The notes: a model not told the origin generated them from the sequence alone. Positions 34,921-60,511 are shown, numbered from the stretch's first letter. The stretch: DNA of 64,000 nucleotides from a virus (IMGVR_UViG_3300028008_001363:35857-99856), one strand, 5' to 3'. A program made the numbers and translations.

Positions 34921-35829
34921 TTATTCCTTATCCAATTCTAATTGTATAGCATTCTGTATTTCATCTGTTATACAAATTTTGTTTCCCTTTTCATCATGGA
35001 CCCACATCCATATTTCTAATGCAGTATATCCTGGATGGTCGTTAACATATTCTTCTTGTATCATCTTTGCTGGTGCAGTTACATATAATGGTCCAAACTT
35101 TGGTAAGATTGCGTTTGCCACAGTTACTGCATTGATATTATAATAGTTATAGTTCATTAGTTTACTTATAGGAATAGTTAAACTTGGTGCTATATCATTA
35201 CCAAACAATATTCCTGCTCTTATTCCACCCAACAGAAAAGACTTACTAAGACTGAATGCTACACAATCTATAACGGGATTCTCAACATTCATAGTTTCTA
35301 AAGACGTTCCATAGAATGCACAGTCCAAGAATATCTTACTATTTGTTCTCTCGCATTGCTTTATTAGTTCAGGAAACCACGTTGAAATACTTCCTGTATG
35401 ATTAGGTTGACTAATGATTATGTAACTGTTTTCTTCTATCGTCTCTAGGTCCGTATGGTGGATACACTCCGCCGTATATGGAGACAATAAAGCAGTATAA
35501 AACATATAGTCATCATTGAAGTAATAAAACTTGTTAACTGTTTTAGATTTGTATGCAACTTGATTAACTATGGCATCATGGATTCCATTACAAAATGCCC
35601 ATTCACTAAACTTATCTACACCAGAAAATCTATATGTCCAATTTAACCAGTTAGCATGATAGTCATCTAGTTCATCAGATGAACCTTTGTTCTTCATATG
35701 CAAACTGTCTAATACTTTTCTGACCTGATTTGGACAAAAACTATGTACTGAACCTTCAGGTGAAAGTGTCGATGCTGGATACTTTCCTCTTTCTAATAAG
35801 TACATTGTGTATGAGTTCGCTAACACCAT
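34921..35829 (-). CDS. PLP-dependent fold-type I enzyme (aminotransferase-like)
   Basis: The PLP lysine would be Lys196 in SLSKS, preceded by FLDCAFYG with Asp169 for the pyridine nitrogen and followed by GGIRAG with Arg204, as in class I/II aminotransferases. At 302 residues it is short, missing parts of the N- and C-terminal small domain. It overlaps the upstream oxygenase gene by 10 bases. The substrate is unknown. Confidence 0.75.
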   Translation of the reverse strand: MVLANSYTMYLLERGKYPASTLSPEGSVHSFCPNQVRKVLDSLHMKNKGSSDELDDYHANWLNWTYRFSGVDKFSEWAFCNGIHDAIVNQVAYKSKTVNKFYYFNDDYMFYTALLSPYTAECIHHTDLETIEENSYIIISQPNHTGSISTWFPELIKQCERTNSKIFLDCAFYGTSLETMNVENPVIDCVAFSLSKSFLLGGIRAGILFGNDIAPSLTIPISKLMNYNYYNINAVTVANAILPKFGPLYVTAPAKMIQEEYVNDHPGYTALEIWMWVHDEKGNKICITDEIQNAIQLELDKE

Positions 35830-37189: not shown

Positions 37190-38368
37190 TTACTTCTCCT
37201 TTTTAAATGATTTATCACCTGGATATATGGGTACCATTGCTCCAGGTTTACGTTTTGGTATCTTACTGTCTGCACTACTTACACAACTTTCACTAATACA
37301 AACTCTTGGTTTATCAAATAGTTTAAAGCCACTCTCTACATACCCTAATGGTTCGTCCGCACAACTGTATGAACGTTTTATACTGCCATCTGGTTCTCTA
37401 ATAATGATACCTTTAAACCCACTTGTACATTCCCAGCCCTTAAACTTATTAAAGTTAAAAGCATTGAAACGTTCTGCTTGGTCCATGTACCATTTCTTTC
37501 CTTTACTGTCTTGGAATTCTACTTGCATTTGGTGTGGCACTGATTTGTCATCACCATTTATCGCATCCATTCTCCACATACTACCTGATTTAGGTTTTGG
37601 TCTTACTACTTTTATGCCAGTTTCTTCTTGTAGTTTAGATGTGAAGTCTCTTTGTGGCATGCCTTTACGCATTGTTTTTAATTGTTCGTCTGTGTAACCA
37701 GATACTACGAAAGATGCAGTTGGGTCACTCTGAGGTTTTAATGTAACATTTATACCACGATTGTGAAAGTATAATGCTCTTTCCCAGTCTCGGTCAAACC
37801 ATTCAGGAACAAGAACCATGTTGATTGTTACGTGTACATCATGTTCCATACAGTACAATAACTTATCAGCAAACTCTTCTTCTTTCGCATACTCACTATG
37901 GAATGATGCTGTGATACTTGCTCGGTGCATTTTTGCAACTGTTTTGCAATAGGTTTCATGCCACTTCATATTACGTGACATGTTAGTTGTCATATGAACA
38001 GAAGTATAATTAGTATTATCCACATCTCCAGCGAGGTGATTGAGGATGTCCAAATAGCCAGGATGAAAAGTAGGTTCACCACCAGATAAAGAAAAGTGAA
38101 AAGAGTTAAATCCATTTTGTCTTGCTTGCCTTTTTATTTCGTCTATCGTTGCTAGACATAGTTCAGTTGGTCTGTGGTCTTTACGGTCACTTCTAGCATA
38201 CGGCCAACAGTACGAACACTTGTAGTTGCAGAAACGTCCTAATAACCAACTTACTGAAAATAAATCTCTATATAAAAGGGTTCGTTGTCCTACACTAACG
38301 AGGTCATCGAATGGTATTTCTGTGAAGTCATATTGTGACCAATATAATTCGTCTGTTTTATCACTCAT
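37190..38368 (-). CDS. Radical SAM protein
   Basis: The CxxxCxxC motif is at Cys47/51/54 (CNYKCSYC), with LSGGEPTFH as the SAM-binding GGE motif. The C-terminus has further Cys (GWECTSG, SYSCAD, RVCISESC) that could bind an auxiliary cluster. It overlaps the upstream radical SAM gene by 8 bases. In layout it resembles the plus-strand 30388 protein. The substrate is unknown. Confidence 0.88.
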   Translation of the reverse strand: MSDKTDELYWSQYDFTEIPFDDLVSVGQRTLLYRDLFSVSWLLGRFCNYKCSYCWPYARSDRKDHRPTELCLATIDEIKRQARQNGFNSFHFSLSGGEPTFHPGYLDILNHLAGDVDNTNYTSVHMTTNMSRNMKWHETYCKTVAKMHRASITASFHSEYAKEEEFADKLLYCMEHDVHVTINMVLVPEWFDRDWERALYFHNRGINVTLKPQSDPTASFVVSGYTDEQLKTMRKGMPQRDFTSKLQEETGIKVVRPKPKSGSMWRMDAINGDDKSVPHQMQVEFQDSKGKKWYMDQAERFNAFNFNKFKGWECTSGFKGIIIREPDGSIKRSYSCADEPLGYVESGFKLFDKPRVCISESCVSSADSKIPKRKPGAMVPIYPGDKSFKKEK

Positions 38369-39344
38369 GTATGAAGTCTCTCCAATTAGTTCCGTGTATT
38401 TTGTCCATTATTTCACTTTGTTCTATCAACTGTTCTCTTAGTAATTTATCTTCCATCGCATCTGGCGACATAAACGCAGGTCGTATAACTGGTGTCGATG
38501 AGAAACAATCAATGTTATTATCATTGCACCAACCTAATATTTCATGCATATGCTTGTGATTAAAAACCATAGGCAAAACTGATACTGTCACATAAGAATT
38601 ACTTGGTTTTAATTTATTGAACTTCACAAGGTTTTCACTCGTTTGTTTCCAACTTGAACCTGGTCGTATATACTCATAGCGTTTGCCTATTGCTTCAATA
38701 CTCACATTTATCTGTATTCTTCTAAACTTCTCAAACAAATGATTCCAGTCTGTCATATCATAACTTCCATTTGTTATCAATTGTACTTCAATATTAGAAG
38801 AAACTCCTTCGTCTATTAGTCTTTGTATAATCTTTTTTACTTGTGGTATCATAAATGGTTCACCACCTGTAAACTTTATAATCTTTGCATCTAACATAAG
38901 ATGACTAAACTCTAATGCTTTTTTTGTCCAACGTGTCTTTGGTTCTTCGTGTCTTGCTTCGTATCCGTACCAATTATATTCTTTATTATCTCTTATGAGA
39001 TTTGCCCATTTACTACTACTTCCTGGATGACACATTCGACAAGCAAAGTTACAAGTATTGTTTATCTTTAAATCCCAATGCTTAATACCAGTTTCACCTT
39101 TGAACTGGTCATTGTATGTTGTTCGTAAACTTCTACCTGTTAGTTCTTCACTTAGTTTACACTCAGCACATCCATCTAGCCATTCTGTCTCACTTTGCTT
39201 ACCCCATTCAGCATGTCTTGTTTGCCAATCATCATCAAAATATAATAGTTCTTCATCGGGTTTTGACAACCATGCACAACAGGGTCTTATAGTAGACGTG
39301 GTATCTATTACTACACCATGTTTAAATATTGCACATTCTGGCAT
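38361..39344 (-). CDS. N-terminal-twitch-type radical SAM protein
   Basis: The core motif is Cys98/102/105 (CNFACRMC), with FTGGEPF following. The N-terminus has Cys4, Cys22-23 (RPCC) and Cys59/62 (CAEC), a pattern repeated in most members of this cluster, which probably binds a second Fe-S cluster ahead of the core. At 327 residues it is the shortest of the N-twitch copies. Confidence 0.88.
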   Translation of the reverse strand: MPECAIFKHGVVIDTTSTIRPCCAWLSKPDEELLYFDDDWQTRHAEWGKQSETEWLDGCAECKLSEELTGRSLRTTYNDQFKGETGIKHWDLKINNTCNFACRMCHPGSSSKWANLIRDNKEYNWYGYEARHEEPKTRWTKKALEFSHLMLDAKIIKFTGGEPFMIPQVKKIIQRLIDEGVSSNIEVQLITNGSYDMTDWNHLFEKFRRIQINVSIEAIGKRYEYIRPGSSWKQTSENLVKFNKLKPSNSYVTVSVLPMVFNHKHMHEILGWCNDNNIDCFSSTPVIRPAFMSPDAMEDKLLREQLIEQSEIMDKIHGTNWRDFIHE

Positions 39345-39353
39345 TACTGTTTC

Positions 39354-39710
39354 CTACTTATGGCTCATCCCACATGGCTCATCAAATCTAACATTGAAGA
39401 AACGTTGCTTGGTTCTATAAGCCTTCTCAACTATTTCATAATCTATTCCAACTGTATTTAACACAGTTTTAATATCTTCTCTGTCTTCCTCTGCCATTTC
39501 TTCACGTACATTATCTCTAATGTCTTGTTCTACCATATCATATATACTACTAAAACACCACTCACAAAATGTAACTGGCATCACACCAAAGAGTCCTTGA
39601 ATTCCACCACACGATTCATCATATTCATCGTTACAAATAGAACATTTTGGTTTTGGTTTAGATGTTTGCAATTCACGTATGTAGTCATTCGCTGTTCTTT
39701 TTTTCATCAT
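39354..39710 (-). CDS. Small zinc-binding-like protein
   Basis: A 118-residue protein with CSIC near residue 23-26, a further Cys, and FCEWC near residue 48-52, suggesting a zinc site. The rest is charged and helical. The start lies inside the end of the 52-residue gene. The function is unknown; it could also be a small partner of the radical SAM enzymes. Confidence 0.6.
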   Translation of the reverse strand: MMKKRTANDYIRELQTSKPKPKCSICNDEYDESCGGIQGLFGVMPVTFCEWCFSSIYDMVEQDIRDNVREEMAEEDREDIKTVLNTVGIDYEIVEKAYRTKQRFFNVRFDEPCGMSHK

Positions 39711-39843
39711 CCTTCCTATTCTTTAAAACAATATGTATATACCATTTCATTAACCATTCAACTTTCCTAGGGTATTGGTCTGGATTAGGTATCTTATCTT
39801 CTCCAAAGTAATCAATAAATCCTTGTATATCTTCATCACTCAT
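39685..39843 (-). CDS. Small unknown protein (52 residues)
   Basis: It begins at ATG 39843 as an ATGA overlap with the upstream gene stop and ends 26 bases inside the next gene, so coupling on both sides supports it. The segment YPRKVEWLMKWYIHIVLK is amphipathic and basic. No family is recognised. Confidence 0.55.
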   Translation of the reverse strand: MSDEDIQGFIDYFGEDKIPNPDQYPRKVEWLMKWYIHIVLKNRKDDEKKNSE

Positions 39844-40163
39844 AATGGAATATCCCTATTCTCTTTAGCACAGTGTGATTGACAAACTTCTAGTTTACTC
39901 ATATTGTTTTCAATCCACTCAAAGATTGGACCTTCTATAATCTCTTCCATAGAATAATGATGTATGTTATGATACTTCTTATCTATACCAGATTCATTCC
40001 AAAGTCCAGTCATTCTTCTTGTAATGCCAAACCAACAACAAGGCAGTACATATCCTTTTGATGTGATATAAAGATTGCCCATTGTTTTATGAAATGTTCC
40101 TTGTCCATTTCCAACAGCCGCTTTACACTTTGGTTGTATCTCAAAAGTTTTGTTCCAAGTCAT
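39840..40163 (-). CDS. Separate C-terminal (SPASM-like) half of a split radical SAM enzyme
   Basis: A 107-residue protein with LYITSKGYVLPCCWFG and CQSHC, matching the C-terminal auxiliary-cluster part of the intact paralogue at 50998 (YLSAEGLILPCCWVAG). It overlaps the gene for the catalytic half by ATGA. Together the two look like one enzyme encoded by two genes. I see no frameshift needed to explain the split. Confidence 0.75.
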   Translation of the reverse strand: MTWNKTFEIQPKCKAAVGNGQGTFHKTMGNLYITSKGYVLPCCWFGITRRMTGLWNESGIDKKYHNIHHYSMEEIIEGPIFEWIENNMSKLEVCQSHCAKENRDIPL

Positions 40164-40876
40164 ACTAAGCCCTCGATTCCTACATAACCTTCTGGTAATA
40201 CAATCTCATCTATTTCATTTGCAGGGTCTGTGTTTCTAAAAGACTTAATCACCACAAATCTATCAAAGTTCTCATCTTCAGATAGTTTCTTAATGTCACT
40301 TATCTGATGCTGATTCCATTTGAATACAATAAACTGCCACATCGCTTTGCCACCTGAAGAGATATATGCTCTCCAGTTCTTTTGTAAAGTATTCCAATCA
40401 ACATTCTTTCTATAAAGATGATTGGTTTCTTCATCTCCGTCTATTCCGAATACAACTACTAAACGGTTGTTTAATTCTTTAGATAATTCTCCTAACTCAC
40501 TCCAGAAACTTTCATTTCTTGACCCACCATTCACGTGAACCCAAATGTCTTTTTCTTTATTGTCCAGGTGATAGAAATACTTTATGATTTCTATTACATC
40601 TGGATTTATTACTGGTTCATCTAAGTTGCCACACAAGACTACTTCGTCTAAGTGTGACCATCTATCAGGCAGAAATGTCTTCTTTATATCTGCTACTGAT
40701 AGATAGGTATTATTCAGTTCAACATCGTAATCTAAAGTAAACGTATCTCGTTCTTCAGTCTTTTCATTCTGAAGTTTAACAAGATAACTTCGTTCACACT
40801 GTGGACAAAAGGCATTACAATAGTTTGTTATTTCTAACTGTAAACGTCCTATATTGCCTTCGGTTGCCCACAACAT
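40160..40876 (-). CDS. Radical SAM catalytic half of a split enzyme
   Basis: The CxxxCxxC motif is at Cys20/24/27 (CNAFCPQC), exactly as in the 367-residue protein at 50998. The 238-residue protein ends after the core (LPEGYVGIEGLV), and the auxiliary-cluster part continues as the next gene. It shares the segments CGNLDEPVINPDV and NHLYRKNVDW with its paralogue (CGNFGDPIIANDT, NHLYRQGVNW). Confidence 0.85.
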   Translation of the reverse strand: MLWATEGNIGRLQLEITNYCNAFCPQCERSYLVKLQNEKTEERDTFTLDYDVELNNTYLSVADIKKTFLPDRWSHLDEVVLCGNLDEPVINPDVIEIIKYFYHLDNKEKDIWVHVNGGSRNESFWSELGELSKELNNRLVVVFGIDGDEETNHLYRKNVDWNTLQKNWRAYISSGGKAMWQFIVFKWNQHQISDIKKLSEDENFDRFVVIKSFRNTDPANEIDEIVLPEGYVGIEGLV

Positions 40877-40879
40877 TTA

Positions 40880-41683
40880 TCAATCAATGTCCAGTTCTGG
40901 CCAAGTGGCTAATGATTTTTCTGCTGAATAGTTGAATATCTCTGCGGTTGCCCATTCTTTTTCAATACACCACCAACACCCTTTACATTCTTTTGTAAAG
41001 TTCTCTGTCTCTTCAATCCAACCTTCACAAGACCTAGTCAATGCACCAAGAGAAGCAAGTAGTCCATACTTCTTATAGAATGCTAGTACAATTCTTTTGT
41101 CTGAATGAATGAACGGTAGATATTCAGTATGGTAATCGCATCTGCATTCACTTCTTTCATCAATCCACCATTGGCGATTGTCCCAATCTCTACGTTCTGC
41201 TCTACGCTTCCATCTCTTTCTCCAGAGTGGTGCGCCAATTTCTTCAGGTGGGTTAACAGTTACACCATTAAATAATGCAGTAATGTTATGCTTGGCAACC
41301 ATGTCCCATGACAATCTAGTTCCATTATCAATGTAATCTTTTGCTGTAGTCATTCTAACCATATGCTCACCAAACTTTACATTAGGGAAAGCATTCATTA
41401 CAAACTCACGTGCTTTTGCGGCATAGATATGTTGCCATGGCTTTTCTTCGTGGCAACAAGACCATACATAGATTGTAATATCTAGGTCATTCTCATTAAT
41501 ATGGTGTGCTAATAACCACAACAATATTGATGAATCCATGCCACCTGACATTCCAATACCAATATTCTTATGAAAACCCCAATCTTTCGATTCGAAAGGT
41601 AATGTGATTTTGTACTCTTCGGGATGTGCTTCTTCCGCATTGTTTCCCCGTCTGTAAACAATGGCTCTGTCTTCAATAATCAT
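40880..41683 (-). CDS. QueC-like PP-loop ATPase, copy 1
   Basis: The 267-residue protein has the PP-loop SGGMDSS at 46-52 for ATP pyrophosphate binding, as in QueC, TtcA and asparagine synthetase relatives. The C-terminal RSCEG...CKGCWWC resembles the QueC zinc site. QueC turns a carboxylate into a nitrile via an amide, but the insert here (NPPEEIGAPLWRKRWKRRAERRDW) is unusual, so the reaction may differ. It sits between radical SAM genes. Confidence 0.75.
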   Translation of the reverse strand: MIIEDRAIVYRRGNNAEEAHPEEYKITLPFESKDWGFHKNIGIGMSGGMDSSILLWLLAHHINENDLDITIYVWSCCHEEKPWQHIYAAKAREFVMNAFPNVKFGEHMVRMTTAKDYIDNGTRLSWDMVAKHNITALFNGVTVNPPEEIGAPLWRKRWKRRAERRDWDNRQWWIDERSECRCDYHTEYLPFIHSDKRIVLAFYKKYGLLASLGALTRSCEGWIEETENFTKECKGCWWCIEKEWATAEIFNYSAEKSLATWPELDID

Positions 41684-42892
41684 TTAATATATTCCTCGTT
41701 TTGTTAGTTTTACATTTAAGTTGGAGCACCTCGTTGTGCATACCTTTAGTTTTGGATTGTTTTCATCGTCATAACCATTAGAGAAACTTTCCTCTAAATC
41801 TTTTGTAAAGAAGTCATGGCTTATTATATCACGGAATGAATGAGAATGCAAGTTATTCCAGCCCTCATTGTACTTTTTAGTGAATCTTAACCAATTTTCT
41901 CTACCACCAGCATCATATTGTGTCTTGTATTGATAGTTAGAGTTCATCCAACAACATCTCCATACAGAACCATCATGTGAAATCTGGTATCTATTATTCG
42001 TACCCCATAGACAAGTGATACCTGTTTGTTCTCTTGCTATCTCTAGGTTCGCTTCGGCACTAAGTTTAGTATCAACTTTTATATCTTTGATAACACTTCT
42101 TGCTTTCTTCAGATTCTTTTCAACTAAATCATCACTGATATTCATCAAGTCTTCGTCTTCTTCTTTCATCTTATCAAGTTCATTCAACTTCTCACTCAAA
42201 GCAATCTTAACTGCCTTTTGTTCTACACGTTGAATTCTATTTCTTTGAAATTTGTCAAATCCATGTTCTGCCGCCAGCATCTTTGCTGTTTCCACAAGTT
42301 CTTCATTGAAATCGAATGGAATCATTTTCCATACTGCACAACCACCGCCACTGATAAATGCTTCTGCATTTTTAATTATCTTATCAAAGTCAGTGCCAAT
42401 TCTGTACATATTTTGTGTTTCATTATCTGTTCCATCTAAGTCAAACATTACGTGATGTCTTCCTGGTAGATGTTCGTGTAGTATTTCACCTAGTTTCTTC
42501 CAAAAGGCTGGTGACTTGTATGAACCATTTGTTGAAATAGTCATATCATGTAATCCATTAAAATTAGCATGTAAGTTACCATTTCCATCACCAACATAGT
42601 CATCAGTCGGAATATCGCCTTTTGTTGTTTTGGCCGCATACTCTACCAGTTCTAAGAAGTCAGGATGAAAGGGACTATCACCAAAACTTCCATCGTAAGT
42701 TAGATACTTAACTTCATCTTTTATCGAATCAATAAGTTGATGATGAATATCTACTGGCAAGTTCCAGTTCTTTGGTGGTGCTGAAACTTCGTCTGTATCA
42801 GGATTAAATACTTTATGTCTGATACAACCAGGACACTTTGCTTGACAGTTAGAGGTAACCTCTATCGTTATTTCCATATTCCTTCTATTCAT
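41684..42892 (-). CDS. Radical SAM protein with C-terminal SPASM-like region
   Basis: The core motif is Cys16/20/23 (CQAKCPGC), and the C-terminal half has CLWGTNN...GSVWRCCWMN and CTTRC, an auxiliary-cluster pattern. It belongs to the same subgroup as 40160/39840 and 50998. ATG 42892 overlaps the upstream gene; ATG 42877 after AGAAGG is a possible alternative start. The substrate is unknown. Confidence 0.88.
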   Translation of the reverse strand: MNRRNMEITIEVTSNCQAKCPGCIRHKVFNPDTDEVSAPPKNWNLPVDIHHQLIDSIKDEVKYLTYDGSFGDSPFHPDFLELVEYAAKTTKGDIPTDDYVGDGNGNLHANFNGLHDMTISTNGSYKSPAFWKKLGEILHEHLPGRHHVMFDLDGTDNETQNMYRIGTDFDKIIKNAEAFISGGGCAVWKMIPFDFNEELVETAKMLAAEHGFDKFQRNRIQRVEQKAVKIALSEKLNELDKMKEEDEDLMNISDDLVEKNLKKARSVIKDIKVDTKLSAEANLEIAREQTGITCLWGTNNRYQISHDGSVWRCCWMNSNYQYKTQYDAGGRENWLRFTKKYNEGWNNLHSHSFRDIISHDFFTKDLEESFSNGYDDENNPKLKVCTTRCSNLNVKLTKRGIY

Positions 42893-44054
42893 TTATATAA
42901 TCCCATACTTTAGGTGCTAATGTCTTACATGACACATCATATAATTCATCTTGTAATCGAACCAGTTCTTTAAACTTTGGCTCTTCTAATGTTCTATTGC
43001 CTTTTAATCTTTTGGCAAACTCTGCTGTAAAATCATTTACAACTAATTCTTCTAGTATCTTATCTTTCACATCTTCTTCCAAGTTAACAATGTCCATAGC
43101 CTGTGGCCAATGCACAAATGTAGTTCTTATATTTACTTTTTTTGTAGGTATCAACTTCTTAATGTCTAAGAAGTCGTTATATATTTCATTCATATAGAAC
43201 GCATGGTATGCCGATGTAGTACAAACAAATAAGAAGTTATGAACTAGTGGTGCAACTTCAACAATGTTCTTCAGCACAGTCTGATAGTCGCCATCTGTCC
43301 TAAAGTAGTTAAATAAGTCTCCTGTGCCGTCTAATGATACAGTTACACTAACTCTTTTGAAGTGTGGCCACAATGTTTTAACTGTCCACCCTTTGTACTC
43401 AAGTATACTCATATTACTATTGTAAACAAGAGATATCTTTTTTGTATCAATTCTTGGGTCATCAATCATTCGTTGTAATGTCTTATACATATCTCTAGTA
43501 TAGAATGGTTCACCGCCAGAGAACTCAATATTCTCTACAGTTGGCAATACATTATCAAACAAATCATCCATCACTCTGTCATCTGGAATATCTATTTTAT
43601 TTGTAGGTGGTGATATGTGACTGAAGTTAAAATCTTTCTTTAACTTTAATTCTATTGTAGGATTATCTTTGCCAGTCTGTTCAAACCTAGAGTTCGATGA
43701 CGTGTCACAATGCCTACATTTATAGTTACATGCTCGTGTCATCTTTAACTGCAAGTCTTTTATATGAATAGTATCTGACTCATAATCTGGGTCAGTATGT
43801 ATTGTATTCTCTAGTGACCTAGTTCTGTATGAAGATAGTCCTGACTCCTCTTGTATCTGGCAATCAATACATCCAGCAGGCCACTCATCGTTACGCAACT
43901 GCTGTCTAACTTTAACAAAGTCGGCGTTGTTAATCACTTGTGATGGCAGTTTATCTATATCAGATTCTACAAAATCATTTCTTTTGAATCTGAAACAAGG
44001 AGCAAATCCACCAGACTTCAAATCTAAATGCGACCATGCGTACTTACATTTCAT
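42885..44054 (-). CDS. N-terminal-twitch-type radical SAM protein
   Basis: The core motif is Cys109/113/116 (CNYKCRHC) with SGGEPFY next. The N-terminal Cys set is Cys3, Cys20 (APCF, with Phe in place of the second Cys seen in sisters), and Cys62/65 (CIDC). It overlaps both neighbours (ATGA upstream), so it is part of one translated unit. Confidence 0.88.
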   Translation of the reverse strand: MKCKYAWSHLDLKSGGFAPCFRFKRNDFVESDIDKLPSQVINNADFVKVRQQLRNDEWPAGCIDCQIQEESGLSSYRTRSLENTIHTDPDYESDTIHIKDLQLKMTRACNYKCRHCDTSSNSRFEQTGKDNPTIELKLKKDFNFSHISPPTNKIDIPDDRVMDDLFDNVLPTVENIEFSGGEPFYTRDMYKTLQRMIDDPRIDTKKISLVYNSNMSILEYKGWTVKTLWPHFKRVSVTVSLDGTGDLFNYFRTDGDYQTVLKNIVEVAPLVHNFLFVCTTSAYHAFYMNEIYNDFLDIKKLIPTKKVNIRTTFVHWPQAMDIVNLEEDVKDKILEELVVNDFTAEFAKRLKGNRTLEEPKFKELVRLQDELYDVSCKTLAPKVWDYINE

Positions 44055-45343
44055 CGGAGTTCTCCTGCTTCGTGTCTCTGTTGTATATATTTAAGTGAGA
44101 AACCTGGTTCTTTCATCATCTTATCTACTTCGGCATATCCCTCTAATTCAGTACATAATTTATAAAGAATATCTTTTTCTTTCAATGCTTGTACTAAATC
44201 AGGATTATAATCTCCTATATTAGAATCATAATATTCTGTATCTAATAGATGAGTTTTCTTCAAAAATAGATACCACGCATATTCTTTTTCTTCTGTGGGT
44301 TTTCTATTTCTTTCTAATATCTTCTTTGCTCTATCAATTCTTACTTGAGCGGCTGGTTCACGTTCTTTACTATCCCACTCATCTAATATCCATTGTTCAT
44401 ACCAATCTGGTCCAAAGTGTGGACAATATTCTCCTGTCTCTACCATCTTAAACGAACATGACCACGTAGGATGATTCTTAGCAAAATAGTCCATATCATC
44501 TGCAAAGCCATTTAAGTTTAACGTGCTGTAGGTAGAATGTATGTGACCTCTTTCTATGTTCTTTAATTGTGATAGATATTCTTCATAGATTTCTATTGAT
44601 TCTTCCCAACCTGGCGAACCCCATCGTTGATATTCATTGTAAGCATTACAACCATCTATTGAACCTGTCAGTATGATTTTTCTGAAACGATTAAGTTTCT
44701 CAACCATTACATCATCTAATCTCTTTGTTGTGTTTGTGATTATTTCTAGTAAAACATTTTCTACTTTACATTTCTCAATCAACCAATCAATAAGTTTTGG
44801 AAAGTTTGGTGAGAAGAAAGGTTCTCCACCTAGTATCTTAATCTTCTCCAGATGTTGCCAATCTACGTTTAATTCTTTTAGATACTCAATTCTTTTCTTT
44901 GGTATTTTAGTTGGCTGTCTGCCTCTCATACCTTTTTCGTTTAAAAGAAAGTCATCTCTATAGTATAACTGACTTGAGAATAAAGAGTCACACATTTTAC
45001 ATTGCAGGTTACAAAGATTATCTAAACTCAACTCTATTGAACGTAATCTATCAAAGTCTTCAGTTAGAGTTACATTTTCTAACTTGAAGTGTACGTTGTT
45101 GGCAGCCCATCGCATCGACTCATTGCCTTCTGCGTAACATAAAGAACATTCTTTAGTCTTCACACCATTTAACATATTCTTTCTTAGCCAAAGATACTTG
45201 TCATTAAATGGTTTTGTTGCGTCTTCTTCTATGTGGTCTTCATCGTTTCCTACTGTAAACCTACAACATGGTCGGGCAACATTCTTCATAGAAACTGCCA
45301 TATGATTCCATGCTAACATACATACTACGCCGTTATCTTTCAT
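44051..45343 (-). CDS. N-terminal-twitch-type radical SAM protein
   Basis: The core motif is Cys111/115/118 (CNLQCKMC) with LGGEPFF. The N-terminus carries Cys8 (VVCMLAWNH), RPCC at 24-27 and CSLC at 66-69. It is 430 residues long, with a C-terminal tail of about 100 residues after the barrel. The one-base overlap with its upstream neighbour supports co-translation. Confidence 0.88.
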   Translation of the reverse strand: MKDNGVVCMLAWNHMAVSMKNVARPCCRFTVGNDEDHIEEDATKPFNDKYLWLRKNMLNGVKTKECSLCYAEGNESMRWAANNVHFKLENVTLTEDFDRLRSIELSLDNLCNLQCKMCDSLFSSQLYYRDDFLLNEKGMRGRQPTKIPKKRIEYLKELNVDWQHLEKIKILGGEPFFSPNFPKLIDWLIEKCKVENVLLEIITNTTKRLDDVMVEKLNRFRKIILTGSIDGCNAYNEYQRWGSPGWEESIEIYEEYLSQLKNIERGHIHSTYSTLNLNGFADDMDYFAKNHPTWSCSFKMVETGEYCPHFGPDWYEQWILDEWDSKEREPAAQVRIDRAKKILERNRKPTEEKEYAWYLFLKKTHLLDTEYYDSNIGDYNPDLVQALKEKDILYKLCTELEGYAEVDKMMKEPGFSLKYIQQRHEAGELR

Positions 45344-46527
45344 TACATCATCGCCTTAAATCTTGCATCTAAATCTAAAATATTTTCATCTCTGTATCCA
45401 TCATACCTATTTTGAATCTCTATAAATTCTTTACTTCCAGTATACTCTGTAGTTTCAAGTATATTTATAAGAGTGTCAACTGCAACATATACGTTTCTGT
45501 CATCGGACATACCTAAAGCCACAATAGAGTTAGGTTTATAATTATCTATCCAATTTTTAAGAAAATCTATTGATTTTTGTTTTAACTCTGGTGGTATACA
45601 AGAGACTGCCATGCCTTTTGGCCACCAAACTTGGTTAGGGTCAATCCTTACTTTCGCATTAATCAACTCGTCCCACCATTTATCTATTGTTACTAAATTT
45701 ATGGCAGTACATGTCATCTGAATTGATACATCACAACCTTCATGGGCTTCACTTGCTGACCTATATTTTTCTATGTTATTCTTAATCACATTCCATTTGA
45801 TGTTACTTTTTCTTTGAAATTCTTGTGTTTCACCAGTGCCATCTATTGATAATACAATCTGCAAGCCTGCTCCATCACAAAATCTCATTAAAGTATCAAA
45901 CCATTTCTTTGATGCATTAGTGCCATTTGTTGTTACTACACATCTAATTTTTGGATAATTATCAGCAATATGGTTCATAAACTTTCTTACTCCTAAATCA
46001 ATAGAAGGTTCTCCACCTAGAATAGATATCTCTTCGCAGTCACTTAAGTCTAAGTCATAAACATCATTTGTGTCTATGTGTAGTATAAAATCTTTTCCTG
46101 TATGCTTAATAGCCTCTTCTTCAAGCAAGGATGACGATGATGGTCCACACATTCTACACATCATATTACATTTATTACCCGCTCTGTAATCAAGTCTCAC
46201 AATTTTAGTTATTCCATCTGGTGAATTACAATTGGCGTCAGGACAAACTTCTTCTCCACCGCAGTGTGATTGCAAATCGTATTGTTCGTAAAATGTTCTT
46301 CTGGAATCCTTACCTAAACTCTCATTATGTATGCATTCTCTACAAAATATAGATTCCTTATCATCGTACATTCTTTTTTTGAAGTCACGCAGATAGTCAG
46401 ACTTTTCATATTCTTTTACGGTGCCTTCGAAAGTCTCACCTTTCCATTCACAGCATGGTCTACATCCTTGTGTACCTTCATAATATAGACCCAACCAAGG
46501 GGCGTTACAGTAAGGTTTATCTCTCAT
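45343..46527 (-). CDS. N-terminal-twitch-type radical SAM protein
   Basis: The core motif is Cys120/124/127 (CNMMCRMC) with LGGEPSID. N-terminal Cys are 7, 22, 25-26 (RPCC) and 62/65 (CREC), plus two extra Cys near 95-100 (VCPDANC). The C-terminal RDENILDLDARFK is shared with the neighbouring 46531 protein (RDQNILDIVPQYK), showing recent common origin. Confidence 0.88.
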   Translation of the reverse strand: MRDKPYCNAPWLGLYYEGTQGCRPCCEWKGETFEGTVKEYEKSDYLRDFKKRMYDDKESIFCRECIHNESLGKDSRRTFYEQYDLQSHCGGEEVCPDANCNSPDGITKIVRLDYRAGNKCNMMCRMCGPSSSSLLEEEAIKHTGKDFILHIDTNDVYDLDLSDCEEISILGGEPSIDLGVRKFMNHIADNYPKIRCVVTTNGTNASKKWFDTLMRFCDGAGLQIVLSIDGTGETQEFQRKSNIKWNVIKNNIEKYRSASEAHEGCDVSIQMTCTAINLVTIDKWWDELINAKVRIDPNQVWWPKGMAVSCIPPELKQKSIDFLKNWIDNYKPNSIVALGMSDDRNVYVAVDTLINILETTEYTGSKEFIEIQNRYDGYRDENILDLDARFKAMM

Positions 46528-46530
46528 CTA

Positions 46531-47895
46531 TTACTCTTCAAATAGGTCTTTATATTGGGGAACTATATCTAAAATGTTTTGGTCACGAGTTCCATCTAAT
46601 GCTTTTGTCATCTTAACAAAATCAGGTAACCATTTTTCCGAATAATCTTCACTCATCATAAATCTAACTGTTGAATCTAAAACTGTACAAAAGTGCTTCT
46701 TAGTTTTGTCGGGATGGTCACTTGCCATTACCCATTCTTTGTACTCATCATATAGTTCTACCACTTCTTGTTTATTCTTTTCTGGTAGTACTTTGATGTT
46801 ATAATATTTTGGTGAGTGACACATGTGTTGTGTTATTGTTGGACGTGGACAATGCCAAGGATTAAACTTGTCTAGTCCAGACTCTTCTAGTTTCCATTTC
46901 ATAAACTCTGGCATATGATATACATTCATCGGTGTAACGGTAAAGGCAAACCATGCTTTCAAGTTTATACGTTCATTGTCATTTAATGTTTTCATATGTT
47001 TATAGACTGCTGGAAACTTTGCTGGTGTTCTTTGATAATCAAATACATCATTACAACCATCTATACTAACACCAATACGTATCTGCTTAAACTGTTCCCA
47101 TAAATGAACTAATCTATCAGGCACCATTGTTAGATTTGTATTGTATTCTAATTGTATTTCACTTGCATTGCCACTCTCAACAAGTTTTTCTAAACTCTCT
47201 TGGTGTTCTGCAATGATTAGTGGTTCACCGCCAACGATATATAATTTCTTAGCCTTAGTACAATACTTGTCAAACTGTTCCCAATAATGGTCAGCATTCT
47301 TAAACCAATCATATTGGTCAGTACTCCACTTACCTTTGTTGTTCTGTACTAATTGAATTCTATCGTGTGTATCTTTATATGAAGTGGACTTATGTACTTT
47401 TACAAAGTCATCATACCACATGTGCGAGTCTGTAGGTCCACACATACGACATTTTAGATTACAGAAGTTACCATACCTAATATCAAAGAAATCGATATTC
47501 TGTTTTTCAACATCTAATGTTCCATCTTCTTCAGTGTTTTCAAAAATCTCTTCCTTTGTGAGTTTCCAATCTTCGAACTCATACTCTCTTCTTGACCTTA
47601 TACCATTTACTTCTTCTTGTCTACAACGTTCACATTCAGGATGCCATTCACCTTTCATCATGCTCTTACGAACATCTTTTAATATGACTGCATTTCTGGC
47701 TTCATTGAAATCATCACGGCCTGCATTATATGGCGTACCATCTTCTTTCTTCATTATACCACGTTGTGGTGAATAAGAGTTTGTGTTACAACATATCCTT
47801 AAGTCACCATTGTTTCTTAGATTGATTGAGTTCCATGGTAGTGGACAAAAAGTATTACCTTTTGATTTAGGTACGTTTTCAAAATCTTTAGCCAT
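46531..47895 (-). CDS. N-terminal-twitch-type radical SAM protein
   Basis: The core motif is Cys145/149/152 (CNLKCRMC), followed by VGGEPLI. The N-terminus has FCPLPW (Cys17), RICC (35-36) and CERC (88-91), the fullest form of the N-twitch pattern together with the 49216 protein. The ending RDQNILDIVPQY matches relatives. At 454 residues it is one of the longest of the set. Confidence 0.9.
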   Translation of the reverse strand: MAKDFENVPKSKGNTFCPLPWNSINLRNNGDLRICCNTNSYSPQRGIMKKEDGTPYNAGRDDFNEARNAVILKDVRKSMMKGEWHPECERCRQEEVNGIRSRREYEFEDWKLTKEEIFENTEEDGTLDVEKQNIDFFDIRYGNFCNLKCRMCGPTDSHMWYDDFVKVHKSTSYKDTHDRIQLVQNNKGKWSTDQYDWFKNADHYWEQFDKYCTKAKKLYIVGGEPLIIAEHQESLEKLVESGNASEIQLEYNTNLTMVPDRLVHLWEQFKQIRIGVSIDGCNDVFDYQRTPAKFPAVYKHMKTLNDNERINLKAWFAFTVTPMNVYHMPEFMKWKLEESGLDKFNPWHCPRPTITQHMCHSPKYYNIKVLPEKNKQEVVELYDEYKEWVMASDHPDKTKKHFCTVLDSTVRFMMSEDYSEKWLPDFVKMTKALDGTRDQNILDIVPQYKDLFEE

Positions 47896-47904
47896 AATAT
47901 ATCC

Positions 47905-48555
47905 TTATTTAAATCCCCATTCTTTTTCTTTGCACCACCAACATTCGCCGCAATGTCCTAGTCCTGGGTCTTTTATGTTGTTTTTAGTAAAGTAGTCACA
48001 GGTCGGGTCATACTCACAACTTCTAGTAACTTGTAGTAAAGTATCTATTAAGTTTTCTTCTCTATACATCTTTGCTATACCTTGTTTGTTTGTGTTCGCC
48101 CAAGGCATATAAAACTTATCATTGTGATAATACATGACATTATTGCCGTCATCTTTCCTAGAGTAATCAAAGTCAAAAACTGGTACAAACTTACTAGCAA
48201 CTTCATTCGGTGGGTTCATTGTTGTTCCATCATATACTCTATTTAGGTTGCCACTTTCTACATCATTTTTGGGAGCATCACACATTGAACTGTCTGTTGC
48301 CGCTTCATCATAATGTATATGATGCACTACGTTATTGTTTCCTGTTAGTTGAATGCACTTCTCTACAACTACTGGAGCAACAATAGAATTTCTTCTAAAC
48401 TTTAGATTACTTCCTGTTGTATAGATATGAATAGTGTCGGTAGTATTCTTCATTAGATAGTATAATAAAATAGAACTATCTACACCACCACTCACCATTA
48501 TTCCTACGGGACCCTCAACTATCTCAAGTTCAACTCCCGCACAATCAATTAACAC
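47905..48555 (-). CDS. QueC-like PP-loop ATPase, copy 2
   Basis: The PP-loop is SGGVDSS at 22-28. The C-terminal RSCEYDPTCDY...CGECWWCKEKEWGF shares RSCE and CWWCxEKEW with copy 1 (CWWCIEKEW), and the middle DGTTMNPPNEV corresponds to its NGVTVNPPEEI. This makes the two a distinct phage subfamily rather than ordinary QueC. It overlaps thyX by one base. Confidence 0.75.
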   Translation of the reverse strand: MLIDCAGVELEIVEGPVGIMVSGGVDSSILLYYLMKNTTDTIHIYTTGSNLKFRRNSIVAPVVVEKCIQLTGNNNVVHHIHYDEAATDSSMCDAPKNDVESGNLNRVYDGTTMNPPNEVASKFVPVFDFDYSRKDDGNNVMYYHNDKFYMPWANTNKQGIAKMYREENLIDTLLQVTRSCEYDPTCDYFTKNNIKDPGLGHCGECWWCKEKEWGFK

Positions 48556-49214
48556 TACACTAAGTCTCCTGCCAATGGAAATATCTCTGCGATAACTTTA
48601 GCACATTCGTGTGCAATTTCCATGTGTTCTTTTTGTGTACCATTTGCGCCACGTAATTCGATGTAATGTACCCAACTACGAATTGAACCATTCATATACA
48701 ATCGTGTCTTAGTATTGCCTTCAGGTAGAACAACCCTTGCTTGTTCTTTAGCAATGCCCGAATCGATAGCCCAGTCATATACTTCTTTGGCTTTATCAAT
48801 CACTTCTTGTTGTTTACTACGCCAAGCAAAATGAATGTCTTCATCACTATCAACTTCTACACTGTTCTGCCTATTCTTTGTATCTTGTAATCTTGCTTCA
48901 CGTAATACAAACTGGTCACCCATTTCTTCTGGGTTAGCATAACGTTGACTGAATTCTTGGAATGAGAAACTACGGTGACGCACAATTTGGTGTGCAATGT
49001 CACGTGTTGTTTCAATCTCTAAACATGCACTAACCATTTCAAGTGGTGACCAATGCTGGTGTTTGATGAGATACTTAATTAGTTTCTCACTTGTTTCTTT
49101 ATTGATTTGATTGTTTGGATTGCTTACTTTGGCACAGTATGCAATTAGTTCCTGTACGTTGTCTAGTTCTGAACCAACTGGTGCTGTACTATGTGATATT
49201 AGTTTTACTGACAT
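48555..49214 (-). CDS. thyX: Flavin-dependent thymidylate synthase
   Basis: Makes dTMP from dUMP using FAD and methylene-tetrahydrofolate. The ThyX signature RHRxxSxxExSxRY is exact at 79-92. The 219-residue length is normal. It is embedded in the radical SAM run, and translation is coupled on both sides. Confidence 0.97.
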   Translation of the reverse strand: MSVKLISHSTAPVGSELDNVQELIAYCAKVSNPNNQINKETSEKLIKYLIKHQHWSPLEMVSACLEIETTRDIAHQIVRHRSFSFQEFSQRYANPEEMGDQFVLREARLQDTKNRQNSVEVDSDEDIHFAWRSKQQEVIDKAKEVYDWAIDSGIAKEQARVVLPEGNTKTRLYMNGSIRSWVHYIELRGANGTQKEHMEIAHECAKVIAEIFPLAGDLV

Positions 49215-49215
49215 T

Positions 49216-50751
49216 TTATTCCTTGTCTCTGTCTAATTCTGATGTGTTTACATGAAAGCCGTCGTCTTCTAATTCTCTTAAAAGTCTGTCATCAAACTCT
49301 CCATCCCAGTCATCTCCGTCATCTGGTTTCCAATCTAATAGGGCTGCCATCTCAGGAAATACATCTCTAAAGTTTGTATCTCTGATTGCATCCATCTTTT
49401 CAATATACTCAATAAATTCTGGCATACGTTCACGTGACCAATCTCCACTCTCTGAGAATGATAACATGCCTTGTAATCTTTTCACACCATATGATGCTTC
49501 ACGCCAATCTTCATATGATACATCTGAACCTCGTGTACTTAATTCCCAGTTTGCTTCTAACCATTCGATAAACTTATCGAACTTAGCATGTGTCATCTCT
49601 TTGAACCAGTTCGGTAGAACTTTAACATTAAGATGTGGTGGGTGATAAACAAAGTGATAGTTAATCATACCAGCACCAAACGGCCACATGTTAATCTTCT
49701 TAAACTTCATTTCTAGTTTCCACTTAATGAAGTCTGGAAGATAATATATGTTCAAGGCTTGTACTGCACAAGCAACTGTGACTTCTACATTAGGTCCTGT
49801 TTCGTCTAACAATTCAAACATCTTAACAGTGTGGTCCCATTTACTTGGGAATCGAATGTAGTCGTTCATCTCGCCAATACTATCAACACTGTAATGAAAT
49901 CTTACTCGCTTGAACTTATCCCACAAGTCAAACAAACGCTGTGGCATTTCTACACCATTTGAATTGTATCTTAATTCAATACCGCTGGCGTATCCTGCCT
50001 TGACAACTTCTTCTAGTAATGTATAATGTTCTTCAATGATTGTTGCTTCGCCACCTGCAAAGTACAACTGTTTCATATGTGGTATTTGTTCGTATAACTG
50101 TTCCCAGAAAGCAGTATTCTTTTTGTGCCAGTTATAACTTGCACCATCAATCTTTCCTTTACTGCCCCATTGCATAGTTTCTTTTAGTGATTCGTTTTCG
50201 ATACTTGGATGAAGTTTAATCCAATCGGGAACCCATAACGAACTGTCATGTGGTGAACACATGATACATTTTAGGTTACACTTACTACCTAGACGTAAAT
50301 CTAAGTAACGAATCTTTGGTGGTATCTCTCCTTCAACAGAGGTCTCTTCAATAATTTCTTGTAAGTCTACACGTCTTGCCCAATATTCTGTTTCCCAGAA
50401 ACGTTTAGACATGTGACCCGCATCTTCTTCTGCGTAACATTTCAGACATGACGCTGGTTTCTCACCGTTTAGCATTTGCTTTCTGACATTCTTCATGTAG
50501 TCGTTATTCCAACTACTCATCAAGTCAGTAACATTTAGATTGGCTGGTTTGCCATCTGCTTGTTTAAGAACTCCTACCTCGCCACCATGCTCTTTGTCGT
50601 TTGTTGCTCCAACACTTGATGCGTTAGCAGTACAACATACTCGCATATGTCCATTTGGACGTGTACTTAAATGTACCCATGGTAACAGACAGAATGTGTC
50701 TGTGGGTGCTTTGGTTCTTTTGCGCCATTCTTCAATATTTTTATTAGTCAT
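49216..50751 (-). CDS. N-terminal-twitch-type radical SAM protein
   Basis: I start it at ATG 50751 (AAGG upstream) rather than TTG 50769. The core motif is Cys158/162/165 (CNLKCIMC), followed by FAGGEAT. The N-terminus has FCLLPW and RVCC plus CLKC, closely similar to the 46531 protein. It has an acidic C-terminal extension and is the longest member at 511 residues. It overlaps the DUF1127 gene by 8 bases. Confidence 0.9.
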   Translation of the reverse strand: MTNKNIEEWRKRTKAPTDTFCLLPWVHLSTRPNGHMRVCCTANASSVGATNDKEHGGEVGVLKQADGKPANLNVTDLMSSWNNDYMKNVRKQMLNGEKPASCLKCYAEEDAGHMSKRFWETEYWARRVDLQEIIEETSVEGEIPPKIRYLDLRLGSKCNLKCIMCSPHDSSLWVPDWIKLHPSIENESLKETMQWGSKGKIDGASYNWHKKNTAFWEQLYEQIPHMKQLYFAGGEATIIEEHYTLLEEVVKAGYASGIELRYNSNGVEMPQRLFDLWDKFKRVRFHYSVDSIGEMNDYIRFPSKWDHTVKMFELLDETGPNVEVTVACAVQALNIYYLPDFIKWKLEMKFKKINMWPFGAGMINYHFVYHPPHLNVKVLPNWFKEMTHAKFDKFIEWLEANWELSTRGSDVSYEDWREASYGVKRLQGMLSFSESGDWSRERMPEFIEYIEKMDAIRDTNFRDVFPEMAALLDWKPDDGDDWDGEFDDRLLRELEDDGFHVNTSELDRDKE

Positions 50752-50944
50752 CTTTACCTTGTTCTTCAAAGTCTTTTTTCATCCATACCAGATTATTAAT
50801 ATCGCCTCTTGTTAAGCCAATATCTCTTAAGTCTCTGTTTGATAATCTGTTTAGATGCTTAATAGTGTCCCGATGCATTTGCCATGTCATCAGATATTTC
50901 CAGTATCTATACGGAAGTGTATAGATTCGTTTAAATAGTGTCAT
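50744..50944 (-). CDS. DUF1127-like small Arg-rich protein
   Basis: The 66-residue protein has the DUF1127 signature LSNRDLRDIGLTRGDI, common in small alpha- and gammaproteobacterial proteins, some of which act in RNA or phosphate/carbon regulation. I use ATG 50944 with AAGGAG about 13 bases upstream, instead of TTG 50977. It follows a late-type promoter motif. It is probably acquired from a bacterial host. Confidence 0.8.
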   Translation of the reverse strand: MTLFKRIYTLPYRYWKYLMTWQMHRDTIKHLNRLSNRDLRDIGLTRGDINNLVWMKKDFEEQGKDD

Positions 50945-50981
50945 AATATTTTTGTTTCTCCTTCTTATTATCAACAATCAG

Positions 50982-50989
50982 TATTTATC
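50982..50989 (-). promoter_or_regulatory. Late-promoter-like GATAAATA (minus strand)
   Basis: TATTTATC on the plus strand reads GATAAATA on the minus strand, 37 bases before ATG 50944. It would drive the DUF1127-radical SAM run. Confidence 0.45.
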
Positions 50990-50997
50990 TACTGAGT

Positions 50998-52101
50998 TTA
51001 ATCGAACTGTGCCTTGAAGGCATCAAATTCTTCGCCACATTTCTGGGCACATACCATTGGTTTACCCAAGTGTACATTCGCTTTACTCCACGAGTCAACT
51101 AGTCTGCCCGTGAAATACTCATTATTAAGAACTACTTTTAGTCCATGTTTTTTGGCATCAAATACATCTTTACCACCAGATTGTTGTAATAATTCCCATA
51201 CTTGGTTTTCGCCTGGCTTTTGCCAGAACTTGTACATGCTTCCAGCAACCCAACAACAAGGTAGAATTAATCCTTCAGCACTGAGATACATACTCTTCTC
51301 TGCGGCTACTTTACATTTGATTTTTACATTATCAAAGTATTGCTCAAGTGAGCCGTGTTTCTCTTCTAATTTTATAATGTCTTTAGTAGCCTTATTCTGA
51401 TACTTTACTTCTTTTGGTTTCTGTAGAAGTTGTTGTGCTTCGCCTTTTCGATTGACTGCCTGATGGTCTTCTTTACCTGTCTTCTTCATTGTAGAGAAAA
51501 ATCTACCAGTCTTCTTCTTCATAAACTTTTCAAAGCCTTTTTCTTTTGCAAGTGCTTCTGCTTCTTCTACTTGATGCTCGTTATGTGCGAAGATTATATA
51601 ATCCCAATGGGCTCTGCCACCTGCTTCGATGAATGCCATTGCATTTCTCCAAGCAATATCCCAATTGACACCTTGACGATACAAATGGTTAGTATCACCT
51701 AGTCCATCAAACGAGAATGTAACGTGTCCTTTGTTACCTAGAACTTTTGCTAAGTCTCTCCACCAATCTTCTTTCTTTGCACCAGCATTTGTATTCATGT
51801 TTAACCACATGTTTGAATTCTGTTCTCTTAGATACTTGAATACTTCTAGTGTGTCGTTTGCAATGATAGGGTCACCAAAATTGCCACACATGTAAAGTCT
51901 ATCTAATTGTTTTACGAATTCTGGTGTTAGAATTTTCTGAACATCACTTACTGTTAATTCATGTAACCCTTTCTTGCCACCAAGATTAGGATTATCAACA
52001 CCACCTTTGACGTTTCTGTCACACATTGGACAAGATGCTTGACACTTCTCCGTAATCTCTAAGTGTACTGCTCTTACATCTTCGTGGTTATATAGATTCA
52101 T
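50998..52101 (-). CDS. Radical SAM protein with C-terminal SPASM-like region
   Basis: The core motif is Cys20/24/27 (CQASCPMC). A central basic linker (KKKTGRFFSTMKKTGKED) leads to the auxiliary-cluster region with KCKVAAE, LILPCCWVAG and CAQKC. It is the intact form of the split pair at 39840-40876. It comes after three methyltransferase-like genes in the same direction. Confidence 0.9.
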   Translation of the reverse strand: MNLYNHEDVRAVHLEITEKCQASCPMCDRNVKGGVDNPNLGGKKGLHELTVSDVQKILTPEFVKQLDRLYMCGNFGDPIIANDTLEVFKYLREQNSNMWLNMNTNAGAKKEDWWRDLAKVLGNKGHVTFSFDGLGDTNHLYRQGVNWDIAWRNAMAFIEAGGRAHWDYIIFAHNEHQVEEAEALAKEKGFEKFMKKKTGRFFSTMKKTGKEDHQAVNRKGEAQQLLQKPKEVKYQNKATKDIIKLEEKHGSLEQYFDNVKIKCKVAAEKSMYLSAEGLILPCCWVAGSMYKFWQKPGENQVWELLQQSGGKDVFDAKKHGLKVVLNNEYFTGRLVDSWSKANVHLGKPMVCAQKCGEEFDAFKAQFD

Positions 52102-58025: not shown

Positions 58026-58054
58026 ATTATAACAGATTTTTAGTCAGATGTAAA
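58026..58054 (-). promoter_or_regulatory. Sigma-70-like promoter (minus strand)
   Basis: Read on the minus strand: TTTACA (58054-58049), 17 bases, then TATAAT (58031-58026). It lies at the end of the carbamoyltransferase gene and would drive the 921-residue gene and those after it. Confidence 0.6.
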
Positions 58055-60509: not shown

Positions 60510-60511
60510 TT

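Follow-up and report, generated by a model that had tools for sequence, protein, structure and literature searches.

The 64,000-nucleotide stretch of viral DNA analysed here (the window; bases 35857-99856 of the linear 99,856-bp IMG/VR record IMGVR_UViG_3300028008_001363) carries a dense minus-strand array of genes for radical S-adenosylmethionine (SAM) enzymes (rSAMs), and this array is built around a recurring syntenic core of four genes with a variable periphery. The core consists of a putative GT-A glycosyltransferase (55221; genes are named by their first window coordinate), a methyltransferase-like protein (52102), an rSAM with a SPASM-type cysteine set (50998) and an rSAM of the N-terminal twitch (N-twitch) type (49216), and three natural fusions tie components of such arrays together. 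We propose, at a probability of about one half, that the array encodes a modular pathway in which the rSAMs carry out C-H chemistry on sugars or on a glycoconjugate assembled by the GT-A enzyme. Companion genes suggest such sugar tailoring, which an earlier interpretation of the window (the sequence-only reading) had not proposed.

A radical SAM array around a four-gene core

The sequence-only reading had placed ten rSAM loci on the minus strand at 37190-52101 (37190, 38361, 40160, 41684, 42885, 44051, 45343, 46531, 49216 and 50998) and two on the plus strand (3706 and 30388), and all twelve open reading frames (ORFs) indeed contain CxxxCxxC, a motif expected in 0.1 of the 12 after residue shuffling and absent from every other window protein of more than 200 amino acids (aa). 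GGE, which had been attributed to the set as a whole, occurs in nine of the twelve; in 40160, 41684 and 50998 its position is taken by a CGN(F/L)-type loop or similar. The Pfam model PF04055 gives 11 matches in the record, ten of them over the cut-off, and 40160, which has no Pfam match, is matched by rSAM models of NCBIfam and PHROGs. By motif and model, the twelve proteins are predicted members of the radical SAM superfamily that would cleave SAM, and at motif level they neither fall into unrelated families nor lack Fe-S residues. The array, its core and the two plus-strand genes are as follows.

37190..38368, minus: rSAM without twitch, C-terminal Cys, widely conserved (PF04055 E 4e-14; relatives in 31 loci)
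38361..39344, minus: N-twitch rSAM (NF033640 186-188 bits)
39840..40163, minus: predicted SPASM half, coupled to 40160 (PF13186 E 3e-6, junction, homology)
40160..40876, minus: predicted rSAM core half of a split rSAM/SPASM, no GGE (motif, models, junction)
41684..42892, minus: rSAM with C-terminal SPASM-type Cys, no GGE (motifs)
42885..44054, minus: N-twitch rSAM (NF033640 216 bits)
44051..45343, minus: N-twitch rSAM (NF033640 191 bits)
45343..46527, minus: N-twitch rSAM (NF033640 209 bits)
46531..47895, minus: N-twitch rSAM (NF033640 351 bits)
49216..50769, minus: core N-twitch rSAM (NF033640 430 bits; likely start ATG 50751, not TTG; anchor of 74 loci)
50998..52101, minus: core rSAM with C-terminal SPASM-type Cys (CCW 282-284), no GGE (motifs, synteny)
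52102..53493, minus: core protein resembling class I SAM methyltransferases, N-terminal helical repeats variable (homolog model fold)
53493..54281, minus: paralog of the 52102 C-terminal domain by eye (no Pfam match)
54281..55243, minus: second such paralog by eye (relatives in 17 loci)
55221..57986, minus: core putative GT-A glycosyltransferase array, divergent repeats plus a complete C-terminal domain at ~696-917 (homolog model fold)
3706..4935, plus: seventh N-twitch rSAM, outside the block (NF033640 190.8 bits)
30388..31473, plus: rSAM without twitch (PF04055 E 3e-7; relatives in 27 loci, inside the core in other phages)

Seven of the rSAMs (3706, 38361, 42885, 44051, 45343, 46531 and 49216) pass the curated 170-bit cut-off of the NCBIfam model N_Twi_rSAM (NF033640) with 186-430 bits, and 0 of 14 control genomes has a protein over it. 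The assignment of six minus-strand proteins to this type thus stands, with 3706 as a seventh member. All seven carry an N-terminal cysteine set ahead of the core (C - CC - CxxC), whose residues are predicted ligands of an auxiliary Fe-S cluster, but the layout previously given for them was too strict, since C..PW is confined to 45343, 46531 and 49216, and 42885 has a single cysteine (C20) instead of CC. The trio with a C-terminal CCW site (50998, 41684 and 40160) is also recovered, except that for 40160 the site lies on the separate coupled ORF 39840-40163; the two ORFs appear to form a split rSAM/SPASM protein of 238 and 107 aa with a 4-base overlap, intact relatives being single proteins of ~355-400 aa. 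The SPASM model PF13186 matches 39840 over its cut-off (27.7 bits) and 41684 below it; 50998 has no match at E 0.1 although its CCW and cysteine layout is alike, and a 50998-like protein in another phage record (L086) does exceed the cut-off. Sequence searches of the PDB gave no match for 49216 and NifB only (E 0.04) for 50998, so that no functional class can be read from solved relatives of either.

Gene spacing within the block is operon-like. Most junctions lie between an overlap of 8 bases and a gap of 9, tight as the sequence-only reading had it but not mostly overlaps of 1-10 bases, and two gaps are larger (129 and 228 bases). A small DUF1127 protein (50744-50944, minus strand) occupies the gap between the core rSAMs, its stop overlapping the likely ATG of 49216.

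A scan with 49216 yielded 74 IMG/VR viral loci at 45-100% identity. Neighbours were counted in the 32 non-redundant loci that extend 6 kb or more upstream, a neighbour being a gene within 8 kb of the 49216-like anchor, assigned by best BLAST match to window proteins such that accessory paralogs may be lumped. A 50998-like gene is found in 30 of these loci, a 55221-like GT-A gene in 27 and a 52102-like methyltransferase gene in 26, compared with 17 for 46531-like and 11 for 37190-like genes. Because these frequencies differ, we distinguish a conserved core from a variable periphery. Each of 18 larger records holds 6-22 PF04055 and 7-21 NF033640 matches at E<=0.001, some of the latter below the cut-off. 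The idea of one elaborated pathway rather than random acquisitions is supported as regards linked function, by the syntenic core and the three kinds of fusion, but not as regards one fixed set, since only about four genes are conserved and the other rSAMs are swapped.

The fusions join different parts of the array. A 635-aa protein in an Oligoflexia metagenome-assembled genome (MAG; L083:8804-10711) combines a 50998-like rSAM/SPASM (residues 9-384) with a GT-A domain (400-629), an N-twitch rSAM is joined to a 37190-like rSAM in L080 with both CxxxCxxC motifs kept, and a pyridoxal phosphate (PLP) enzyme of the 34921 family is fused to an N-twitch rSAM in L024, L031 and L033. The N-twitch part of the PLP fusions is sister to window 45343 (tree support 99/94).

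Since sequence searches of the PDB with the GT-A and methyltransferase alignments gave nothing useful, folds had to be compared. The model of aligned single-domain relatives of 55221 (~240 aa; predicted local distance difference test, pLDDT, 87) points to a GT-A fold for the conserved domain: its PDB matches at E<0.001 are GT-A glycosyltransferases and the related nucleotidyltransferase HddC (template modelling score, TM, ~0.3-0.46, Foldseek), its matches among viral structures include two multi-domain proteins of uncultured phages (TM 0.84), and D58 and D60 of a DxD-like motif are invariant across 40 homologs. 55221 itself is a 921-aa array with divergent earlier repeats; its C-terminal domain (~696-917) shares 54-59% identity with the single-domain proteins of one lineage, and relatives of 55221 range from one domain up to 1387 aa. 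For 52102, the homolog model (pLDDT 85) finds methyltransferase-type folds only in the PDB, which suggests a class I methyltransferase fold behind an N-terminal helical-repeat region of variable length. Repeat number varies even among close relatives, whose proteins measure 391-463 aa against 201-470 aa for the whole set. A lone GT-A homolog in Dongia mobilis, without N-twitch arrays, was uninformative.

Old paralogs in phages and Bdellovibrionota

The rSAM paralogs of the window are 20-34% identical to one another, and each is nearer to a protein of another phage. In an N-twitch tree of 80 rows, twelve of them bacterial, with some long branches that make single placements unsure, the seven window proteins fall at seven separate places interleaved with other phages and bacteria, and the twelve bacterial rows require six changes. 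The low identity and the scattered positions rule out recent local or tandem duplication. Because the seven paralogs fall in seven separate places, the array appears to be a mosaic of ancient paralogs around the core and not a local amplification.

Bacterial counterparts exist. A scan of bacterial genomes with the GT-A domain returned six loci, of which L080 and L081 may be phage contigs within MAGs, while L082 (Bdellovibrionales) and L083 (Oligoflexia) adjoin genes that look housekeeping-like by eye. NF033640 matches at E<=0.001 number 13 in this Oligoflexia genome and 11 in this Bdellovibrionales genome, several over the cut-off, and 37190-like copies in Bdellovibrionota MAGs reach 60-62% identity. 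In L095 (Oligoflexia MAG), 37190-like (60%), 50998-like (43%) and 49216-like (54%) genes are contiguous, with a second, divergent 49216-like gene. The picture is one of old paralogs exchanged among phages and Bdellovibrionota. Two Oligoflexia N-twitch clusters (L095 and L096) adjoin transporter operons of the ABC_transp_aux (GldG-like) type, possibly by coincidence.

The DNA polymerase of the window record is closest (~48% identity) to those of Agrobacterium phage Atu_ph07 and Sinorhizobium phage Phosso, whose records measure 470-490 kb, and on these grounds the record probably represents only part of the genome of a marine jumbo phage. No Agrobacterium or Sinorhizobium jumbo phage, the nearest by polymerase, was among the listed carriers of the tested rSAM families. 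A protein encoded upstream (L002) matches tail fibre families.

A proposed sugar-containing product and its rivals

Beyond the rSAMs and the core, the same region holds candidate transferases and further enzymes, and genes related to SAM and Fe-S cluster supply are also present.

58040..59596, minus: carbamoyltransferase of TobZ/NodU type (PF16861 E 3e-55, PF02543 E 1e-40)
59778..60551, minus: DUF6071 protein, SGNH-hydrolase-like by eye (PF19547 E 1.5e-10)
40880..41683, minus: PP-loop ATPase with QueC-like C-terminal Cys set, CxxCWWC (alignment)
47905..48555, minus: PP-loop ATPase of the same family as 40880, with SGGxDS, NPP, TRSCE and CxxCWWC (PF00733 E 3e-5, alignment)
48555..49214, minus: ThyX thymidylate synthase inside the operon (PF02511 E 8e-46)
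34921..35829, minus: PLP protein, fold-type I aminotransferase-like (PF00155 E 5e-4)
34296..34916, minus: Asp/Asn beta-hydroxylase-like oxygenase at the block end (PF05118 E 7e-10)
12814..13896, plus: S-adenosylmethionine synthetase, MetK (three S-AdoMet_synt domains, best E 5e-58)
61180..61557, minus: NifU_N/IscU-type Fe-S scaffold (PF01592 E 1e-52)
60512..60841, minus: A-type Fe-S carrier, IscA/SufA (PF01521 E 4e-19)

It is mainly because sugar-type enzymes recur among the companions, in relatives as well as in unrelated phages, that we favour sugars as the substrate. The carbamoyltransferase family is present in 12 of 15 records with rSAM arrays and in 3 of 14 control genomes. Within 20 kb, the 342-kb phage record L086 combines five rSAMs and a GT-A relative with a DegT aminotransferase (E 3e-65), two epimerase/dehydratases and a nucleoside diphosphate (NDP)-sugar C-methyltransferase (Methyltransf_13/14). 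UDP-glucose/GDP-mannose dehydrogenases occur in L080 and L089, with homologs in L081 and L041, and L081 also has a DegT protein. An amidinotransferase in L035 has SxtG, AGAT and inosamine-phosphate amidinotransferase among its PDB matches. On the bacterial side, a sugar dehydratase, a dTDP-sugar isomerase, a DegT protein (E 3e-94) and a GT2 glycosyltransferase lie ~5 kb beyond the contiguous trio of L095, and in L098, in a parallel to the window, N-twitch rSAMs have a carbamoyltransferase and a DUF6071-like protein in their vicinity. Weak DegT matches in G007, G008, G012 and G014 were set aside, the one in G008 proving on checking to be a SufS-type cysteine desulfurase and not a sugar enzyme.

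Genes for cofactor supply accompany the arrays as well: of 15 array records, 8 encode MetK and 6 encode NifU_N, consistent with a high requirement for SAM and Fe-S clusters of the kind that Nishimura 2017 (PMC5332604) proposes in general. The 328-kb phage record G008 holds nearly the whole SUF set, namely SufB, a SufC-like ATPase, SufBD-core, SufE and a SufS-type desulfurase (L088:3019-4485, 8847-9530, 9517-10095; L091:8228-8629; L100:125-1333). In another viral record, Nfu, cytochrome b (E 1e-69) and FeS_assembly_P lie upstream of the core (L028:1620-4638), as host contamination or as genuine phage genes.

We infer that all these parts could act in one pathway. The GT-A glycosyltransferase 55221 would assemble an unusual sugar-containing molecule, and each rSAM, likely with its own substrate position, would modify the sugar or glycoconjugate by C-H oxidation, epimerisation, deoxygenation or C-C/C-N chemistry. 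The methyltransferase, the carbamoyltransferase, the adenylating PP-loop enzymes and the PLP enzyme may add groups, while MetK would supply SAM and the NifU/IscA-type proteins would help with Fe-S cluster loading. The core would make the common part of the product, and swappable rSAMs and transferases would vary its decoration. A precedent is the twitch rSAM BtrN, which oxidises an aminocyclitol (PMC9012708). The likeliest destination of the product would be the virion surface or, while infection proceeds, the envelope of the host: a change of the host O-chain that blocks superinfection has been suggested for pelagimyophages (PMC7029224), and a role on the virion is equally possible because in the 328-kb record L092 a module of tail-like and glycosyltransferase (GT)-like genes adjoins baseplate hub genes. 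More tentatively, and with doubt about the whole, one could imagine a glycoconjugate pathway rich in rSAMs, most of whose enzymes would have an auxiliary-cluster domain in front of the core and whose modules would pass between giant phages and Bdellovibrionota. The 6-22 rSAMs of each lineage would then write differing C-H modification patterns on a shared GT-A/methyltransferase product, which the infected cell or the virion would display as a rapidly varying chemical identity.

Several points weigh against sugars as the substrate. We know of no substrate or product for any N-twitch enzyme. The sugar genes come from relatives, sometimes from other clusters of the same genome, and neither an NDP-sugar dehydrogenase nor DegT was found in the window (DegT: 0 in the window record G000). 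Glycan pathways do not typically include PP-loop proteins, ThyX or class I/II PLP enzymes, and the PDB matches of the GT-A model are weak and include the peptide glycosyltransferases SunS and GalNAc-T. The sources are metagenomic, so that records may be chimeric and MAG bins contaminated. Finally, most SPASM rSAMs of known function act on peptides (PMC9012708).

It is this last point that makes protein modification a serious rival. In this scenario, SPASM and N-twitch rSAMs would modify side chains in a protein of the virion or tail, or in a peptide resembling ribosomally synthesised and post-translationally modified peptides (RiPPs), and the GT-A enzyme would glycosylate the same polypeptide, as the presence of SunS and GalNAc-transferases among its best PDB matches would allow. 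Also consistent with it is a recurring module in which genes for a tail-like protein (300 aa), a second protein of 117 aa and two GT-like proteins are mostly followed by GT-A and rSAM genes; the module is common to four loci (L080:281-3277, L082:4739-7776, L032:351-3324 and L092:393-4048), one copy being in a bacterial MAG contig. However, a search of the main gap for a RiPP precursor found no conserved small ORF there, only the DUF1127 protein, which two of five close relatives share, and DegT, UDP-sugar dehydrogenase, NDP-sugar methyltransferase and carbamoyl- and amidinotransferases fit sugars better than proteins. We consider protein modification rather unlikely, yet the strongest of the alternatives.

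It is improbable that the array is a chance gathering of unrelated auxiliary metabolic genes kept for various effects on host metabolism. The accessory rSAMs do differ strongly among lineages, and the low mutual identity and separate tree positions of the window paralogs could be read in this way, but the conserved four-gene core, the overlapping genes, the fusions of components and the contiguous bacterial trio speak against such a collection. Least probable is hypermodification of phage DNA or RNA bases, in which the PP-loop proteins would be QueC analogues and nucleotides the substrates of ThyX and the rSAMs. Compatible with it are the two QueC-like PP-loop proteins, whose four C-terminal cysteines are conserved, ThyX within the operon and a QueD-type 6-pyruvoyltetrahydropterin synthase (PTPS) in 3 of 12 related records, but the 7-deazaguanine pathway is incomplete, with no PTPS in the window record, itself a fragment, and no QueC over the family cut-off in the five records tested, the PTPS genes of G006 and G008 lie far from the core, and members of the GT-A/methyltransferase/rSAM core also occur in bacterial MAG contigs.

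Known rSAM-rich phages and other genes of the window

Phages rich in rSAMs are already known, having been reported in 2010, 2017 and 2020 without explanation (PMC2853527, PMC5332604, PMC7029224). Campylobacter phages CP220 and CPt10 have 11-12 rSAM genes per genome (Timms 2010, PMC2853527). Although of an unrelated lineage, they resemble the window record in being rSAM-rich and have their own swappable module of five rSAMs with a putative amidinotransferase and sugar-transferase-like proteins, but similarity is weak and limited to 50998 and 40160 (24-27%), and tblastn finds no homolog of 49216, 55221 or 37190. The T4-like TARA_ERS488813_N000010 has 12 rSAM genes and an A-type carrier, with IscU in related phages, and the accessible part of that report treats the rSAMs as Fe-S-related auxiliary genes, without analysis of rSAM subfamily, synteny, fusions or pathway (Nishimura 2017, PMC5332604). 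The host-recognition cluster of pelagimyophages includes rSAM cassettes with glycosyltransferases (Zaragoza-Solas 2020, PMC7029224), and Pelagibacter phage Mosig, like the array records, brings together rSAMs, a carbamoyltransferase, a sugar-type aminotransferase and a 52102-like methyltransferase; these phages differ in being smaller, in having few rSAMs and in lacking a match to the core N-twitch enzyme 49216. The closest named carriers of the family are Vibrio phages K566 and K567 (255 kb records), in which a small N-twitch-like rSAM array adjoins a PagP-annotated gene, although identity to 49216 is ~24% and no GT-A core homolog was found. In BtrN, the twitch rSAM dehydrogenase of butirosin, the twitch is C-terminal and not N-terminal as in the window, and it was not matched by 49216 in the PDB search. 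NF033640 itself designates a sequence subfamily, a model name without function, of which the window adds seven divergent paralogs in one phage record and in a conserved GT-A/methyltransferase context.

In the openly searchable literature, as distinct from subscription literature, we found no description of the N-twitch core, the GT-A/methyltransferase synteny, the fusions or the bacterial counterparts, and a search combining rSAM, phage and nucleotide sugar returned nothing relevant. The conserved core, the fusions and the sugar companions give a concrete pathway hypothesis and point to proteins on which to test it, among them the naturally occurring fusion of an rSAM with a glycosyltransferase, and to named phages whose arrays are small. 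If the proposed sugar pathway is correct, phages run complex oxygen-sensitive radical chemistry inside infected cells, backed by SAM and Fe-S genes of their own, and N-twitch rSAMs would gain a first function.

Two further groups of genes stand apart from the array. Two similar proteins, oxygenase-like by eye, lie at both ends of the minus-strand block (35820-36425, minus strand, and 62714-63334, plus strand). On the plus strand at 21388-26191, an acyl-AMP ligase, a tryptophan-halogenase family protein (E 4e-83), one further protein and a ketoacyl synthase are consecutive, three of the four have matches of 50-58% in a related record of 342 kb (L087), and this quartet looks like a second small-molecule pathway.

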